From the NCBI GenBank assembly GCA_004570425.1, contig SPQJ01000002.1, forward strand, positions 62,001-126,000: a stretch of DNA of 64,000 nt, in the 5' to 3' direction. The notes under the pieces were generated by a model. The model was not told the DNA's origin, made no database searches, and was given only the letters and a program-made list of their open reading frames with translations. Shown here in pieces: positions 8,549-22,527 of the stretch. The translations under genes and the position numbers were made by a program. Origin of the DNA: Bacillus sp. AZ43 (GTDB lineage Bacteria > Actinomycetota > Actinomycetes > Mycobacteriales > Geodermatophilaceae). Within the stretch, counting starts at the first letter, position 1. Each line of letters begins with the position of its first letter.

Positions 8549-9789
8549 TCAGTTCCGGGGGCGGGTGGGCAGCAGGGCCCGGGGGCTGCGGGCGCGGACC
8601 GCGCCCGCCCAGAGGCCGGCGCCGTAGGCGAGGTCCTCGAGCCGCCGGCCGACGGTGTGACGGATCGGTCCGATCCGCCCGCGCACCGGCCACCACGCCA
8701 CCGCCGAGTCGGCCACCACCGCCGCGACGACCAGCCGCCGCGCCCGGCGGGAGGCCAGCGACGCCCCCACGGCCAGCGGCCAGTGGTGCCGGGTGGCCGA
8801 TCGGGCCAGGGCGCGGCCCGAGGCGCCCACCCCGCGGGCGACGAGCAGCGCGGCGAGCCCGGCGGATGGCCGCTCACCGGACGCGACCAGCCGCGACGCC
8901 AGCCGGGCGGCGGTGACGCCCAGGATCCCGAGCGCCGCGACCGCGCCCCGGCGGCGGCCCGAGAGCGCCAGTACCCAGGCCAGTGCCGTCTCCGGGGCCA
9001 TGACCAGCGGGGAGACGGCGCTCCCGTGCCGGGCGGCCAGCAGCGCCGCCCCGGTGCCGTAGAACGCGCGGCGGCGCAACCACTCCGCGGTCGTGGCCGG
9101 GTGCTCGTGGGCCACCTCGGCGGCCGGCTCGTAGCGCACCCGCCACCCCGCGCCGGTCAGCCGCCACACCAGGTCGACGTCCTCGGCCACCCGCATGGAC
9201 TCGTCGAAGCCGGCCCCGAGCGCGTCCCGGCGGACCAGCAGCGCCGCGCTGGGCACGTAGGAGACCGCCGACCCTGCCCGCACCGGCGCAGGGTGCGGCC
9301 CCATGTCGAGCGCCCCGACCACCGCCTCGTACTCGCCCGGCCAGCCGCTCGCGTCCAGCGGCACGATGCGCGGCGCGACGGCGGCCAGCGACGGGTCGTC
9401 CAGGTGCGGGCGCAGGCGCTCCAGCCAGCCGGGCCGGGGCACGCAGTCGGAGTCGAGGAACGCCACCAGGGCGGTGCCCGCCGCGCGCAGCCCGGCGTTG
9501 CGCGCGGCGGCCGGCCCGCGGGCGACGTCGTGGCGGAGCACCCGCACGCCCGCGGGCGCGCTCACCGGGGCGGCCGAGCCGTCGTCCACGACGACGACCG
9601 GCAGGCCGGCCGTGCCCGGGTCGGCGCGCAGCGCGGCCAGCAGCCGGGCTCCAGGAGCCCGCGGGCCCGCGGCGAGAGGCGGACCAGGCGCAGCGGCGAG
9701 CCGCCCAGCAGCGTGGCCCCGTCGTCCCGGGAGCGGGTGCGCGGGTCCAGCCGGACGGCGAAGCCGTCGGGCAGCCGGCCCCGGCTCAT
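8549..9789 (-). pseudogene. mftF: Mycofactocin glycosyltransferase MftF, interrupted by internal deletion plus frameshift
   Basis: MftF is the GT2-family enzyme that adds glucose chains to premycofactocin. Two frames must be joined. From ATG 9789 the frame reads SRGRLPDGFAVRLD and ALLGGS-type MftF N-terminus up to RLSPRARGLLEPG (about 9643), then becomes nonsense and stops at 9562. The other frame starts near ARLLAALRAD (about 9649), continues through VVVVDDGS, GPAAARNAGLRAA, FLDSDCVPRPGW, SYVPSAALLVRRDAL and EDVDLVW, with C-terminal membrane segments, to 8549. Compared with family members, about 50 residues that normally lie between (including the first strand of the GT fold, V-x-V-V-V-P-V-R-D) are missing. 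The start overlaps the upstream stop as ATGA. Either a real null mutation or a GC-related assembly collapse. Confidence 0.8.
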
Positions 9790-10340
9790 CGCGCGGCCAG
9801 CACCTCGTCGGTGGTGGTGATCTCCACCAGGGGTGCGTAGAGGCCCATGATCCGCAGCGCGCGGTCGTGGTCCTCGTCGCAGGAGCCCGCGCAGGCGTCG
9901 CCCACGACGCGCACGTGCACGCCGGCGTCGGCGGCGGGCAGGACGGTGGAGAGGACGCAGCAGTCGGTGGCCACGCCCACGACGGTCAGCGGCCCGTCGC
10001 CGACGACCTCCACCAGGTCCGGGCCCCACTTCCCGAACGTCGTCGCGTCGACGACCGGGTGCCCGCCGGGGTCCTCGACCAGCTGGTAGAGCGGGTCGTC
10101 GGGCGGTCGGAGCGCGAAGTCGTACTGCTCGTAGTACTCCTTCCACGCCCCGACGGGCTCGGCCGGCGCGACGAAGCGGGTCCAGACGACCCGGTCGCCG
10201 AAGGCCGCCACCAGGCGGCGCACCTTCGCGCGGGCCTCCTCGAACCGGGGCGTGGTCCACGGCGAGTCGCCGTCGCGGAAGACCTCCTGGAGGTCCACGA
10301 CGACGAGCCATCCTTCGGGCTGCGGTGCGGGCGTGCTCAC
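9786..10340 (-). CDS. Isochorismatase/nicotinamidase-family cysteine hydrolase
   Basis: 184 aa. The catalytic triad of the family is visible: D16 in VVVDLQ, K104 in FGKWGPD and C128 in VATDCCVLST (with the preceding GVATD cis-peptide motif). Members hydrolyse nicotinamide, isochorismate, N-carbamoylsarcosine or ureidoacrylate; the substrate cannot be assigned. GTG start at 10340 overlaps the stop of the DUF4386 gene (GTGA) and its own stop overlaps the mftF start (ATGA), so DUF4386, this gene and mftF form one translationally coupled unit. Confidence 0.85.
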   Translation of the reverse strand: MSTPAPQPEGWLVVVDLQEVFRDGDSPWTTPRFEEARAKVRRLVAAFGDRVVWTRFVAPAEPVGAWKEYYEQYDFALRPPDDPLYQLVEDPGGHPVVDATTFGKWGPDLVEVVGDGPLTVVGVATDCCVLSTVLPAADAGVHVRVVGDACAGSCDEDHDRALRIMGLYAPLVEITTTDEVLAAR

Positions 10341-12994: not shown

Positions 12995-13735
12995 TCAGCT
13001 GGGGGACGGCAGCTGGTCGCGGTGTCGTCCGGAGGACGACGGATCACGCAGCCGGCCGTCGGCGGCCGGCTGCCAGCCGGCCGCCGACGTCACCAGTTCC
13101 GCGACCAGCCGGTCGAGCAGTTCGGCCCCCTCCGCCGCCGACGCCCCGGCGGGGTCGCCGAGGACGCCGGTCGGGCTGACGCCGAGGACGCCCTCGGCGC
13201 GCAGCCGGGGCAGCAGCTCGCGGACGGGCGTGGTCACCCCGGCCACCGCGCGGTCCTCACGGACCCCGTCCGGTTCCACGTGCAACATCAGTGACGTCTC
13301 GGTGCGCCCGGCGTGCGCGTCCCCGCCGCGGACCCCGCACGCGAACCAGGCGACGTCGCGCCCCTCGGCGCGCAGCAGGGGGACGGCGGCCCGCAACGCG
13401 TCGAGGTTGCCGCCGTGCCCGTTGACGACCAGCACCCGGCCGGCCCAGCGGCAGGCCGAGCGGCCGATCTCGACCAGCAGGCCGATGAGGGCCTCGGTGC
13501 CGATGGAGATGGTCCCGGGGAAGCCCTCGTGCTCGCCGCTCGCGCCGTAGGCGAGGGCCGGGGCGAGCACCGCGCCGTCCAGGGACGGTGCGGCCGCCTC
13601 GGCGACGGCGCAGGCGACGGCGGTGTCGGTGGTCAGCGGCAGGTGGTGACCGTGCTGTTCGACCGCGCCCAGCGGGACGACGAGCAGCGGCCGGTCCGGG
13701 AGCGCCGGCCAGACGGCACCGCCCAGGGAGGTCAC
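12995..13735 (-). CDS. mftE: Mycofactocin system creatininase-family peptidase MftE
   Basis: MftE releases the cyclised Val-Tyr product from the C-terminus of modified MftA. 246 aa. Creatininase metal-site residues are visible: E26 and H28 in AVEQHGHHLPL, D37 in TTDT, the NGHGGN loop near residue 113, and an ETSLMLH segment with the last acidic ligand. GTG 13735 gives the usual N-terminus (SLGGAVWPAL); no clear Shine-Dalgarno. It stands alone, 2.4 kb from mftC and separated from it by two unrelated genes, unlike the usual contiguous order. The last 30 residues are extra and contain a 31-base perfect palindrome (13058-13088). Confidence 0.88.
   Translation of the reverse strand: MTSLGGAVWPALPDRPLLVVPLGAVEQHGHHLPLTTDTAVACAVAEAAAPSLDGAVLAPALAYGASGEHEGFPGTISIGTEALIGLLVEIGRSACRWAGRVLVVNGHGGNLDALRAAVPLLRAEGRDVAWFACGVRGGDAHAGRTETSLMLHVEPDGVREDRAVAGVTTPVRELLPRLRAEGVLGVSPTGVLGDPAGASAAEGAELLDRLVAELVTSAAGWQPAADGRLRDPSSSGRHRDQLPSPS
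13058..13088. repeat. 31-base perfect palindrome inside the 3' end of mftE
   Basis: GTCGGCGGCCGGCT (13058-13071), loop GCC, AGCCGGCCGCCGAC (13075-13088): 14 of 14 pairs. It is read as AGWQPAAD in mftE, beyond the conserved domain, so it may be an extragenic hairpin absorbed into the frame. Confidence 0.6.
13273..13286 (+). repeat. parS-like 14-mer, copy 1
   Basis: GTTCCACGTGCAAC, inside mftE. Exact match to copies 2 and 3; 12 of 14 bases match the bacterial parS core GTTTCACGTGAAAC. Confidence 0.55.
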
Positions 13736-14268: not shown

Positions 14269-16104
14269 CTAGCGGGCGACGGCGCTGCCGCCGATGCGCT
14301 CCGCCGCCCGGTCGGCCGGCTCCGGGCGGGCGAACAGGTAGCCCTGCGCGGAGCCGCAGTCCAGGCCGGCGAGCGCGAGGCGCTGCTCCTCGTTCTCCAC
14401 GCCCTCGGCGACCACGTCGAGGCCCAGGGTGCGGGCCAGCTCGACGATCGAGGTGATCAGGGTGACCGCCGACTTCCCGCGCGGCAGGTCCATGACGAAG
14501 CTGCGGTCGATCTTGATGATGTCCGCGGGAAGGTGCCGGAGGTAGGACAGCCCGGAGAACCCGGTCCCGAAGTCGTCGATGGCGATCCGGATGCCGAGCG
14601 CCCGCAGCGATTCGAGCTGCGCGACGACGGCGTCGACGTCGCGGACCAGGACGCCCTCGGTGACCTCGAGGGTGAGCTGGGCCGGCGGGAAGCCGGTCGC
14701 CTCCAGTGCGGCGACGACGTCGGCGGTGACGTCGCCGTCGTGGAACTGGCGCGGGGAGAGGTTGACCGCCATGCGCAGCGGCGTCCCCGTCTCCGCGCTC
14801 CACGCGGCGCCCTGCCGGAGAGCCTCGTGGAGCACCCACCGGCCGATGTCGGTGATGGCGCCGGTCTCCTCGGCGAGCGGGATGAACTCGGCCGGCGGCA
14901 CCAGGCCGCGCTCGGGGTGGTCCCAGCGGACCAGCGCCTCGAAGCCCGTCGTCCGCCCGTCGGAGAGCCGGACCGTCGGCTGGTAGTGGAGCTGCAGCCG
15001 CCCCGACGCGGCGGCGGCGGCGAGGTCCTGCGCGAGGTCGGCCCGCCGCCGGGCCGCCTCCGCCATGCCGTCGGTGTAGGCGACCAGGCGGTTCTTGCCC
15101 TGGGCCTTGGCGAGGTACATGGCCAGGTCGGCGTCGCGGAGCAGCGATCCCGCGGTGCGCTCGACGGAGTCGGTGGAGGTCGCCACCCCGAGGCTGGCGT
15201 GCACCGTCACGGCGCCGTCGGCGAGGGGCACCGGCAGGGAGAGCGCGAGCAGCGCCCGCTCCCCGACGGCCCGTGCGGCGTCGGCGCCGCCGTCCACGAC
15301 GACGGCGAACTCGTCGCCGCCGAGCCGGGCCACGACGTCGCCGGGCCGCACGCACCCGCGCAGCCGCTCGGCGAGGACGAGCAGCAGCTCGTCGCCCACC
15401 GCGTGACCGCGGCTGTCGTTGACGTCCTTGAAGTCGTCGAGGTCGATGAACACGAGGCTGACCGCCCGGCCGCGCTGCAGCAGGCGGTGGGTGATCTCCT
15501 CGAGCATCGTGCGGTTGGCGAGGCCGGTCAGGGAGTCGCTGAGGACCTGGTCCTCGTTGAGCCGCCACGCGGCCAGGTGGGCGATGCTCGCGGCGAGCAC
15601 GAAGGCGGCGTGGATGCCCGCCCACACCCAGGGGTCGTGCTGGGCGTGGTGGGCGAAGACCGCCTCCGGGTAGAGGGTGCCCGCGACGCCGTGGTGGAGG
15701 GTGACGATCACCAGCGCGATGCCGTAGGGCACCCAGTCCTGGTAGAGCGAGACGACGCCGATCATCACGAAGAACGCGAAGTGCGACTCGGTGACCCCGC
15801 CCCACAGGTGCACCAGTGCGACGGAGGCGGCCATCAGGCTCGCCGTCGTGGCGGCCGCGCGGCCCTTGCGGCCCAGCCGCGGGACGGCGGCGAGGGCCAC
15901 CGGGCCGGCGACGGAGGCGAGGACGCCGACGGCGGCCGGCTGGCCGTACCCGCGCAGCCAGGCGAACAGCAGCAGCAGGCCGGCCGAGGCGAGGCACAGC
16001 CGGACGATCGACCGGTGCCGGCGCTCCCACACGGCCTCGGGCAGCGAGCGGCCCTCGGGGAGCCGGCCGACGACGCGGTCGCGCAGGTCGGTCAGGAGGG
16101 TCAC
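14269..16104 (-). CDS. Membrane-bound diguanylate cyclase/phosphodiesterase (GGDEF-EAL)
   Basis: 611 aa. About five hydrophobic helices (residues 33-180) form an N-terminal membrane sensor. GGDEF domain: SDSLTGLANR near 190, GGDEF at 262-266, with an intact RxxD product-inhibition site (RPGD, 253-256) five residues before it. EAL domain: FEALVRW, NLSPRQF, TLEVTEG, DDFGTGFSGLSYL, IKIDRSFV, EGVE and QGYLF, so every catalytic residue of an active phosphodiesterase is present. Both activities may therefore work. GTG 16104 follows AGGGGAGC. Last gene in the minus-strand direction after mftC, 65 bp away; probably independent of mycofactocin. Confidence 0.92.
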   Translation of the reverse strand: MTLLTDLRDRVVGRLPEGRSLPEAVWERRHRSIVRLCLASAGLLLLFAWLRGYGQPAAVGVLASVAGPVALAAVPRLGRKGRAAATTASLMAASVALVHLWGGVTESHFAFFVMIGVVSLYQDWVPYGIALVIVTLHHGVAGTLYPEAVFAHHAQHDPWVWAGIHAAFVLAASIAHLAAWRLNEDQVLSDSLTGLANRTMLEEITHRLLQRGRAVSLVFIDLDDFKDVNDSRGHAVGDELLLVLAERLRGCVRPGDVVARLGGDEFAVVVDGGADAARAVGERALLALSLPVPLADGAVTVHASLGVATSTDSVERTAGSLLRDADLAMYLAKAQGKNRLVAYTDGMAEAARRRADLAQDLAAAAASGRLQLHYQPTVRLSDGRTTGFEALVRWDHPERGLVPPAEFIPLAEETGAITDIGRWVLHEALRQGAAWSAETGTPLRMAVNLSPRQFHDGDVTADVVAALEATGFPPAQLTLEVTEGVLVRDVDAVVAQLESLRALGIRIAIDDFGTGFSGLSYLRHLPADIIKIDRSFVMDLPRGKSAVTLITSIVELARTLGLDVVAEGVENEEQRLALAGLDCGSAQGYLFARPEPADRAAERIGGSAVAR

Positions 16105-16169
16105 GCTCCCCTGATCGACCGGTCGGGGACCGAACTCGAGCGGCTGCCCGGCCGGCCGCCCCTTCCGGG

Positions 16170-17384
16170 TCAGTCGAGGGCGACCCCGGACAGCGGGGAC
16201 TCGTCGCAGGGCTTCGCCGGGATCGACGGGATGCCGAGCAGCGTGGGCTGTCCGCGGACAGGGCCCGTGTGCGAGTGGTCGATGTGGCTGCGCGGGGTCA
16301 CCGTGGAGGCGTCGCGGGCCGCCAGCGCCGTCTCGCCGTAGCCCTGGACGCACTCGGGGTCGGGGCCGTCCAGCGGCAGACCGGTGAAGAACTTGGCCGC
16401 CATGCAGCCGCCGCGGCAGGCGTCGAAGTGGGCGCACTTCGTGCAGGCGCCGCCGGTCTGCGGGCTGCGCAGCTCCTGGAACAGCTCCGAGGTCTGCCAG
16501 ACCCGCTGGAACCCGCCCTCGTCGCGGACGTTGCCGGCGAGGAAGTTCTCGTGGATGGCGAACGGGCAGGCGTAGACGTCGCCGACGGGGTCGATGAGGC
16601 AGACCACCCGGCCGGCGCCGCACAGGTTCAGCCCCGGCAGGGACTCCCCCAGCGCCGACAGGTGGAAGAACGAGTCGCCGGTGAGGACGCGGTCGCCGTG
16701 GGCGAGCAGCCAGGCGTAGAGCTCGCGCTGCTGCTGCTGGGTGGGGTGCAGCCGGTCCCAGACGTCGGCGCCGCGGCCCGAGGGCCGGAAGCGGGTGATC
16801 CGCAGCTGGGCGCCGTACCGGTCGGTCAGAGCCGTGAACTCGTCGAGTTGACCGGCGTTCTCGCGGGTGACGACGACGGAGACCTTGACGTCCGTCATCC
16901 CGGCCTCGGCGAGGTTCTCCAGCGCACGGGTGGCCGTGGCGAACGAGCCGGAGCCACGGACGGCGTCGTTGACCTCGGCCGTCGCGCCGTCCAGGGAGAC
17001 CTGGACGTCGACGTAGTCGGTGCGGGCCAGCTGCTCGGCGCGGGCCCTGTCGAGCTTGATGCCGTTGGTCGAGAACTTGACGCCGACCTGGTGGTCGACG
17101 GCGTAGTCGAGCAGGTGCCAGAAGTCCGGCCGGACCGTGGGCTCGCCGCCGCCGACGTTGACGTAGAAGACCTGCATCCGCTGCAGCTCGTCGATGACCG
17201 CCTCGGCCTCGGCGGTGGAGAGCTCCCGCGGGTCGCGCCGTCCCGAGGAGGACAGGCAGTGCACGCACGCCAGGTTGCAGGCGTAGGTGAGCTCCCAGGT
17301 CAGGCAGATCGGGGCGTCGAGGCCGTACTCGAACTGGTCGACGAGCCTGCCGCCCACCGGGCGCTGGGGGAGGACGGCGGTCAT
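16170..17384 (-). CDS. mftC: Mycofactocin radical SAM maturase MftC
   Basis: MftC oxidatively decarboxylates the C-terminal Tyr of MftA and then cross-links it to the preceding Val. 404 aa. Radical SAM cluster C36, C40, C43 (CNLACVHC), GGGEP near residue 77, and the SPASM domain cysteines in LCGAGRVVC, VYACPF and CTKCAHFDACRGGC for auxiliary Fe-S clusters are all present. ATG 17384 overlaps the mftB stop (ATGA). A C-terminal extension of about 30 residues follows the SPASM domain, as in other MftC proteins. Confidence 0.96.
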   Translation of the reverse strand: MTAVLPQRPVGGRLVDQFEYGLDAPICLTWELTYACNLACVHCLSSSGRRDPRELSTAEAEAVIDELQRMQVFYVNVGGGEPTVRPDFWHLLDYAVDHQVGVKFSTNGIKLDRARAEQLARTDYVDVQVSLDGATAEVNDAVRGSGSFATATRALENLAEAGMTDVKVSVVVTRENAGQLDEFTALTDRYGAQLRITRFRPSGRGADVWDRLHPTQQQQRELYAWLLAHGDRVLTGDSFFHLSALGESLPGLNLCGAGRVVCLIDPVGDVYACPFAIHENFLAGNVRDEGGFQRVWQTSELFQELRSPQTGGACTKCAHFDACRGGCMAAKFFTGLPLDGPDPECVQGYGETALAARDASTVTPRSHIDHSHTGPVRGQPTLLGIPSIPAKPCDESPLSGVALD

Positions 17385-17668
17385 GTGCGCACCTCGATCA
17401 TCTGGGAGCGGGCGAGGTCGGCCAGGGCCTTCACGTACGCGGGCCGCTGCGCGTCGGTGACGCCGCAGGCGGCGAGGGCCGCCTCGGCGGTCGGGTGGTC
17501 GGACAGCGCCTCGACGACCTCCACCAGCAGCTTCGACTTCAGGAAGGAGAGCTTCCTGGTGCTGAAGGAGTAGACGAGCGCGCCGAAGGGCTCCGGGCGC
17601 AGGGCCACCGAGCGGGACCTCCGCCAGGGCTGCCCCGGGTCGAAGGCCACCTCGGCCGGCGCGGTCAT
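17381..17668 (-). CDS. mftB: Mycofactocin precursor-binding chaperone MftB
   Basis: 95-aa PqqD-like RiPP recognition element that presents MftA to MftC. Typical pattern: PWRRSRSVALRPEPFGALVYSF and TRKLSFLKSKLLVEVVEAL. ATG 17668 starts eight bases after the mftA stop; its stop overlaps mftC, so A-B-C is a tight operon. Confidence 0.94.
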   Translation of the reverse strand: MTAPAEVAFDPGQPWRRSRSVALRPEPFGALVYSFSTRKLSFLKSKLLVEVVEALSDHPTAEAALAACGVTDAQRPAYVKALADLARSQMIEVRT

Positions 17669-17676
17669 CGGGTGGC

Positions 17677-17799
17677 TCAGTAGACGCCGCACATGCCGTC
17701 GATGGAGACCTCCTCGACGAGCGACTCCTCGACCAGTTGCTCCTCCGCGGCCGCGGGGGCCGGGGCCTCGGTCGCGACGGCGGTGTTCGTCTCGGGCAC
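17677..17799 (-). CDS. mftA: Mycofactocin precursor peptide MftA
   Basis: 40-residue RiPP precursor, easily missed because it starts with GTG (17799) and is short. The acidic leader (EEQLVEESLVEEVS) ends in the invariant core IDGMCGVY, whose last Val-Tyr pair becomes mycofactocin. A GGAG Shine-Dalgarno lies six bases upstream. The next GTG or ATG inside would cut the leader. Promoter and candidate MftR operator lie at 17840-17868. Confidence 0.95.
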   Translation of the reverse strand: MPETNTAVATEAPAPAAAEEQLVEESLVEEVSIDGMCGVY

Positions 17800-18615: not shown

Positions 18616-19848
18616 ATGGGCAACCCCTGGTTCGAGTCGGTCGCCGAGGCGCAGCGCCGGGCGAAGAAGCGCCTGCCCAAGGGCGTGTACGGCGCGCTCG
18701 TCGCCGGCTCGGAGCGCGGGCTGACCCTGGAGGACAACCTCGCCGCGTTCGCCGAGCTCGGTTTCGCGCCGCACACGGCCGGGCTGGCCAACGAGCGGAA
18801 CATGGGCGTCACCGTCATGGGCCAGCCGATGTCGATGCCCGTGATGATCAGCCCGACCGGCGTGCAGGCCGTGCACCCCGACGGCGAGGTCGCCGTCGCC
18901 CGCGCGGCCGCCGCCCGCGGCGTGGCCATGGGGCTCTCCTCGTTCGCCAGCAAGCCGATCGAGGACGTCGTGGCGGCCAACCCGCAGACCTTCTTCCAGA
19001 TGTACTGGGTCGGCACCCGCGACGAGATGCTCGCCCGCATGGACCGGGCGAAGAGGGCCGGCGCCGTCGGGCTGATCGCCACGCTGGACTGGTCGTTCGC
19101 CTACGGCCGCGACTGGGGCAGCCCGTTCATCCCCGAGAGGATCGACTTCGAGGCCGCCCGCCGGTACGCGCCGCAGGTGCTGGTGAAGCCGCGCTGGCTC
19201 TGGGACTTCGCGCGGACCGGCAAGATCCCCGACCTCACCGTGCCGAACATGGTCGCCACCCCTGGCGAGCCGGCGCCCACGTTCTTCGGCGCCTACGGCA
19301 TGTGGAACGCCTCACCGATGCCGACCTGGGAGGACGTCGCCTGGCTGCGCGAGCAGTGGGACGGACCGTTCATGCTCAAGGGCGTCATGCGGGTCGACGA
19401 CGCCGAGCGGGCCGTCGACGCCGGCGTCACCGCGATCTCGGTGTCCAACCACGGCGGCAACAACCTCGACGGGACACCCGCCTCGATCCGGGCGCTGCCG
19501 TCGATCGCCGAGGCCGTCGGCGACCGGATCGAGGTGCTCCTCGACGGCGGCATCCGGCGCGGCGGCGACGTCGCCAAGGCCCTCGCCCTGGGCGCGAAGG
19601 CCGTGATGATCGGCCGCGCCTACCTGTGGGGCCTCGCCGCCAACGGCCAGGCGGGCGTGGAGAACGTGCTCGACGTGCTCCGCGACGGCCTCGGCTCGGC
19701 GATGGTCGGCCTCGGCCGGCCGGACGTGACCGATCTCTGCCGCGAGGACCTGGTCATCCCGCCGGGCTTCGAGCGCGCGCTGGGCCAGGCCGCCGTCGAC
19801 ACCGCGCTCCAGCCGGTGGCACCGGCCCGCCGCCGCCGCGAGGCCTGA
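18616..19848 (+). CDS. mftD: Mycofactocin FMN-dependent oxidase MftD
   Basis: MftD oxidises the MftE product to premycofactocin by oxidative deamination. 410 aa, alpha-hydroxy-acid-oxidase TIM barrel. N-terminus NPWFESVAEAQRRAKKRLPKGVY and the catalytic His279 in SNHGGNNLDG with the downstream LDGGIRRGGDV and IGRAYLWGL flavin phosphate-binding loops are diagnostic. GAGGAGGG is eight bases before ATG. Likely controlled by MftR at 18567-18581, apart from mftABC. Confidence 0.95.
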   Translation: MGNPWFESVAEAQRRAKKRLPKGVYGALVAGSERGLTLEDNLAAFAELGFAPHTAGLANERNMGVTVMGQPMSMPVMISPTGVQAVHPDGEVAVARAAAARGVAMGLSSFASKPIEDVVAANPQTFFQMYWVGTRDEMLARMDRAKRAGAVGLIATLDWSFAYGRDWGSPFIPERIDFEAARRYAPQVLVKPRWLWDFARTGKIPDLTVPNMVATPGEPAPTFFGAYGMWNASPMPTWEDVAWLREQWDGPFMLKGVMRVDDAERAVDAGVTAISVSNHGGNNLDGTPASIRALPSIAEAVGDRIEVLLDGGIRRGGDVAKALALGAKAVMIGRAYLWGLAANGQAGVENVLDVLRDGLGSAMVGLGRPDVTDLCREDLVIPPGFERALGQAAVDTALQPVAPARRRREA

Positions 19849-21396: not shown

Positions 21397-22527
21397 ATGT
21401 CTGTGAAGACCAAGGGCGCGATCTTGTGGGGCGTGGGCGAGGAGTGGTCGGTCGAGGAGATCGAGGTCGGCGACCCGGCGCCGGGTGAGGTGACCGTCCA
21501 GCTGGCCGCCTCGGGCCTGTGCCACTCCGACGAGCACCTCGTCACCGGCGGCACCCCCGTGAACTACCCCGTCCTCGGCGGGCACGAGGGCTCGGGCGTC
21601 GTCACCAAGGTCGGCCCCGGCGTGGCCAACCTCAAGGAGGGCGACCACGTCGTCACCGCCTTCATCCCGGCGTGCGGCCAGTGCCCGCCGTGCTCGAAGG
21701 GCATGCAGAACCTCTGCGACCTGGGCGCCTTCCTGCTGGGCGGCACCGCGATCGCCGACGGCACCCACCGGGTCACCGCCCGCGGGCAGGGCGTCTCGCC
21801 GATGTGCCTGCTCGGCACCTTCTCCCCCTACATCACCGTCCACCAGGCATCCGTCGTGCGCATCGAGCCCGACATCCCGCTGGAGGTCGCGGCGCTGGTC
21901 GGCTGCGGCGTCACCACGGGCTGGGGCTCGGCGACGAAGGTGGCCGAGGTCCGTGCCGGCGAGACCGTGGTCGTCATGGGCGTCGGCGGGGTCGGCATGA
22001 ACTCGGTGCAGGGCGCGGCGGCGTCGGGCGCCCGCCACGTCGTCGTGGTGGAGCCGGTGGCGCACAAGCGCGACTGGGCGAAGGACTACGGCGCCACGCA
22101 CGCCTTCGCGACGGCGGAGGAGGCCACGGCGGCGGTCAACGAGCTGACCTGGGGCCGGATGGCGGACAAGACGATCATCACCGTCGGCGACATCCAGGGC
22201 GAGGACGTCCAGACCGCCCTGAGCCTCACCGGCAAGGGCGGCCGCGTCGTCGTCACCGGCATGGGGCACTGGGCCAACACCGACGTGAAGCTCAGCCTGT
22301 TCGAGCTCACGCTGCTGCAGAAGGACGTGCAGGGCGCCATCTTCGGCGGGCTGAGCCCCCGCGCGGCCATCCCCGAGCTGCTGCGGCTCTACCAGGACGG
22401 GCAGCTCAAGCTCGACACGCTGGTCACCAACCGGTACGCCCTCGAAGACGTCAACAAGGGCTACCAGGACATGCGCGACGGCAACAACATCCGCGGGATG
22501 ATCGTCTACGGCGACGGCGACCGCTGA
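21397..22527 (+). CDS. NDMA-dependent-type zinc alcohol dehydrogenase, mycofactocin-associated
   Basis: 376 aa. Family knowledge: these medium-chain dehydrogenases hold NAD(H) tightly, exchange electrons with the artificial acceptor NDMA and depend in vivo on mycofactocin. Seen: catalytic zinc ligands in SGLCHSDEH and GGHEGSG, four structural-zinc cysteines in ACGQCPPCSKGMQNLC, and nucleotide-binding VMGVGGVGMNS. The C-terminus MRDGNNIRGMIVYGDGDR is typical of the Rxyl_3153-type family. ATG follows GGAAGGG closely. A TTGACG (21333) about 18 bases before CAGAGT may be the promoter. Strong hairpin follows. Confidence 0.9.
   Translation: MSVKTKGAILWGVGEEWSVEEIEVGDPAPGEVTVQLAASGLCHSDEHLVTGGTPVNYPVLGGHEGSGVVTKVGPGVANLKEGDHVVTAFIPACGQCPPCSKGMQNLCDLGAFLLGGTAIADGTHRVTARGQGVSPMCLLGTFSPYITVHQASVVRIEPDIPLEVAALVGCGVTTGWGSATKVAEVRAGETVVVMGVGGVGMNSVQGAAASGARHVVVVEPVAHKRDWAKDYGATHAFATAEEATAAVNELTWGRMADKTIITVGDIQGEDVQTALSLTGKGGRVVVTGMGHWANTDVKLSLFELTLLQKDVQGAIFGGLSPRAAIPELLRLYQDGQLKLDTLVTNRYALEDVNKGYQDMRDGNNIRGMIVYGDGDR

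Follow-up and report, generated by a model that had tools for sequence, protein, structure and literature searches.

Results

The window, i.e., the whole stretch of 64,000 nucleotides analysed here (G000:C30:62001-126000), stems from the draft genome of Bacillus sp. AZ43, a strain described as a soil-type actinobacterium whose draft comprises 4.06 Mb in 78 contigs. It harbors a mycofactocin (mft) locus, and the nearest relatives of its mftF gene are those of Blastococcus. The minus strand carries intact copies of mftE (12995-13735; TIGR03964, 332.8 bits), mftC (16170-17382; TIGR03962 positions 1-338) and mftB (17381-17668; TIGR03967, 110.4 bits), together with the gene of the precursor peptide MftA (17677-17799), which ends in IDGMCGVY, scores above the TIGR03969 cut-off and was given a guessed start codon. 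On the plus strand follow intact mftD (18616-19848; TIGR03966, 692 bits) and an intact gene for an NDMA-dependent alcohol dehydrogenase of the Rxyl_3153 family (21406-22509, corresponding to C30:83406-84509; TIGR03989, 585.9 bits), a predicted mycofactocin user. MftG is encoded elsewhere in the genome, outside the window, and exceeds the TIGR03970 cut-off; TIGR04542, tried as an alternative model, turned out to be the wrong one for this group. Thus mftA, B, C, D, E and mftG are all present, and no other pathway gene examined is decayed. Between mftC and mftE lies a gene for a GGDEF-EAL protein (14269-16200), as is the case in many Blastococcus genomes.

The gene mftF sits with mftABCDE on the minus strand, at about 8549-9789. 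Its ATG overlaps the stop codon of the upstream isochorismatase-family gene (9786-10340, minus strand; PF00857) in an ATGA, and this gene is the neighbor of mftF in most of the genus. Since the gene order around mftF matches that of other Blastococcus, we regard it as the true orthologue rather than a stray copy. However, it is broken. The 5' fragment (9789-9562, minus strand) is an open reading frame of 75 aa that begins with MSRGRLPDGFAVRLDPRTRSRDDGATLLGGSPLRLVRLSPRARGLLEPG, the start of MftF; its codons 1-49 are homologous to MftF, with 71-91% identity to the N terminus of most Blastococcus MftF proteins, and the last 26 lie outside the MftF frame. The 3' fragment (8549-9646, minus strand) comprises 365 open and conserved codons and lacks the first strand of the GT2 fold. 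In a search of the whole genome with TIGR03965, both parts matched in separate frames, at positions 1-38 and 90-463; the 51 model positions between them are missing, and no single frame covers the full model. The C-terminal part alone reaches 398.7 bits over positions 91-463, well above the cut-off of 280, and matches PF00535 from its residue 17 at positions 30-116 of 168 only, which is an incomplete domain. No second mftF was found above the TIGR03965 cut-off in the genome.

Both frames meet at 9644-9649 (minus strand), in the six bases GCCCGG within GAGCCCGGCTGCTGG, which agrees with a preliminary description of this DNA that had placed the split near 9649. The loss of about 50 residues proposed there was borne out as well: the 38 Geodermatophilaceae mftF genes used for comparison carry 46-61 codons between the two points, mostly 48 or 49, and against these relatives the pattern of two frames and missing codons appears far from chance. 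The reading frames of both sides call for a gap of 3n+1 bases, about 148 or 151 if compared with congeners, so that a single deletion explains the loss of codons and the shift of frame alike. Consequently, of the deletion plus frameshift suggested previously, we retain both signs and reject a separate frameshift event. The closest known counterparts are the intact mftF genes of Blastococcus. That of B. haudaquaticus DSM 44270 (L046), for example, has the same neighbors (isochorismatase-family gene, MFS genes), and its product resembles the one encoded here with 77% identity in the C-terminal part and 86% over 42 residues of the N-terminal part. In contrast to the broken frame of the window, it is intact and possesses the approximately 48 codons that the window lacks.

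The six bases at the junction can be derived from either side, as would be expected after deletion between short direct repeats. Such a repeat at the joint is likely but not proven, because GCCCGG is present on the right side in many relatives and the left side of the ancestral gene is beyond reconstruction. In relatives, the sequence shared between the two homologous sites amounts to only 4-11 bases. Within their homologous stretch no hairpin stood out, inverted repeats being limited to 7-11 bases.

What the missing stretch contributes can be seen in an AlphaFold model of intact MftF of B. haudaquaticus (27 sequences, mean pLDDT 91.9). Residues 50-97, which correspond to the gap, comprise a strand (50-52), a helix (56-68), a second strand (71-73), the GT2 strand (83-89) and the start of a helix (93-105), i.e., the end of the N-terminal domain and the first strand of the GT2 fold. 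The latter had been anticipated in the preliminary description. The solved relatives that score best against the GT2 part begin to align at about residue 82, and hence this strand belongs to the shared fold. In addition, 10 residues that are invariant in the sequences of 27 relatives fall into the missing stretch. The C-terminal frame remains open for a long way upstream (478 aa), and its earliest start codon is GTG 9589. Since this start lies past the first GT2 strand and the N-terminal frame stops at 75 aa, an active MftF would not be expected from this gene.

The N-terminal domain itself, of which window positions 9643-9789 represent the first half, was studied in the intact protein (75-80 aa; L046:5710-5958). 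Neither PqqD nor another Pfam family was found in it, and it gave no profile match to MftB. In structural comparison with VIA-align, its model reached Z 5.7 (2.5 Å over 62) against the lasso B1 RRE, Z 5.0 (3.1 Å over 71) against PqqD and 4.7 (3.1 Å over 66) against the PbtF RRE, values that are tied with those of other winged domains, and a Foldseek comparison against known RREs gave no significant match (best E 0.92). The likeness of the model to RRE/PqqD winged helices is tentative. If it is right, MftF would bring its own peptide-recognition domain. The relevant passages of the RRE-Finder papers mention RRE-glycosyltransferase (PF00535) fusions and do not name MftF (PMC7470986, PMC12710340).

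The two halves of mftF show no sign of decay. The dN/dS of the C-terminal part against relatives amounts to 0.22-0.38, compared to 0.20-0.36 among intact genes, third-position GC is 97.5%, again a value like that of intact genes, and both halves keep their coding composition. Relaxed selection on the remainder is therefore not apparent, although a very recent loss would also show such intact-like values. Because the remaining pathway and both halves are undecayed, the loss is either very recent or a local error of assembly or library; a recent lesion and an assembly collapse had been named as options before. A loss of mycofactocin-coupled SDRs was considered as a further sign of decay and discarded: the genome has none above the TIGR03971 cut-off, but the same is true of several congeners whose mftF is intact.

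Among 96 genomes of the family that are at least 95% complete, mftC was found in 91, always at full length, and a match to mftF in 90. Short or absent mftF matches in four genomes (G007, G075, G107 and G099) coincide with contig ends. Three other assemblies show a single frame change inside mftF, at about residue 77 (G088, L179), 356 (G076, L180) and 382 (G070, L181); these assemblies consist of one to four contigs and have intact mftC. Like the window, they combine one frame break with an otherwise conserved mftF and an intact mftC. Unlike the window, they carry single small indels without loss of a segment, in equally unverified assemblies. Four mftF lesions against none in mftC is not a significant difference if gene length is considered (p = 0.11). 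Another congener, G012, contains a second mftC (L178, G012:C1:1856000-1875000) about 1.6 Mb from its main mft locus. No MftF-like frame above the cut-off exists in that genome besides the main one, and none within the 19 kb around the second mftC.

Discussion

Taken as a whole, the observations are probably best explained by a genuine recent deletion that abolished MftF function, a reading we hold with moderate confidence. A single out-of-frame deletion of 3n+1 bases would have hit mftF, probably through slippage or end-joining across short GC-rich repeats, and we infer that the cells carry it.

There is a smaller but still substantial chance that the cells hold an intact mftF and that the draft lost about 150 bases, either when a gap in coverage was bridged by a short, spurious overlap or when PCR molecules with the deletion prevailed in a GC-rich stretch. 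The draft is fragmented, the junction region has 83% GC compared to about 81% in mftF of relatives, and contigs of several relatives end inside this gene. The three assemblies with single frame changes suggest that sequence errors in mftF may be possible in general. Furthermore, an artefact would fit the absence of decay in either half, the intact pathway with its user genes and the near-universal presence of mftF alongside mftC in the family. However, the GC content of the lost stretch does not stand out within the gene (80% vs. 81% for mftF). Joints made by k-mer assemblers need molecules that hold them or a very short forced overlap, and the bases shared at the two sites in relatives are too few for a k-mer misjoin. 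Nor does the contig appear to be poorly assembled in general, a notion that the comparison with a syntenic congener did not support. When 71 open reading frames of this congener were aligned to 140 kb of the contig (81 kb coding), the only clear frame break within a gene was that of mftF, a rough count since the filter had been loosened until mftF was recovered as positive control. One further candidate break most likely reflects the start of a gene. Other scans for frame breaks were noisy or missed mftF, given how frequent open shadow frames are at 74% GC.

If the deletion is present in the cells, its consequence can be judged from the nearest described functional state, a M. smegmatis mutant with an mft locus intact but for mftF (PMC7491314). 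That mutant was constructed, complemented and characterized by metabolomics, whereas the lesion described here is either natural or artefactual. In M. smegmatis, the deletion of mftF abolished all glycosylated mycofactocins along with the aglycones PMFT and PMFTH2. Only traces of AHDP remained, and complementation restored the lost compounds (PMC7491314). In addition, M. smegmatis mft mutants, with the exception of mftE, did not grow on ethanol (PMC6529628). By analogy, the strain would lack glycosylated mycofactocin, produce hardly any PMFT or none, and perhaps retain traces of AHDP. This presumes that the outcome in M. smegmatis would hold in Blastococcus, too. A strain with the deletion thus most likely would make little or no working mycofactocin. 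Since PMFT and PMFTH2 were lost together with the glycosylated forms, we predict a deficiency and depart from the preliminary description, which had expected a non-glycosylated mycofactocin as the product.

In general, it seems quite improbable that a natural Blastococcus has lost MftF and yet employs bare premycofactocin, or another glycosyltransferase acting in trans, as its redox cofactor system. For the strain itself, the production of a bare redox-active premycofactocin that its enzymes use would fit the intact mftA-E and mftG and the turnover of PMFT itself by LimC in vitro (PMC7491314), but in view of the missing PMFT and PMFTH2 and the failure on ethanol in the M. smegmatis mutants we deem it very improbable. 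That a split or frameshifted MftF stays active, through recoding or separate translation of its halves, can practically be dismissed: the C-terminal frame is long, but it has no start codon ahead of GTG 9589, and no change of frame would return residues 50-97, to which the first GT2 strand and the 10 invariant positions belong.

Should the sequence prove to be an assembly artefact, it would call for caution in deducing pathway gaps from GC-rich drafts. If the deletion is genuine, as we favor, it would be an ordinary kind of gene loss and would by itself point to no new form of the cofactor. It would nevertheless represent a natural allele in which mftF has lost its function while the rest of the pathway is complete, and the strain would offer a ready test of whether mycofactocin outside the mycobacteria needs MftF.
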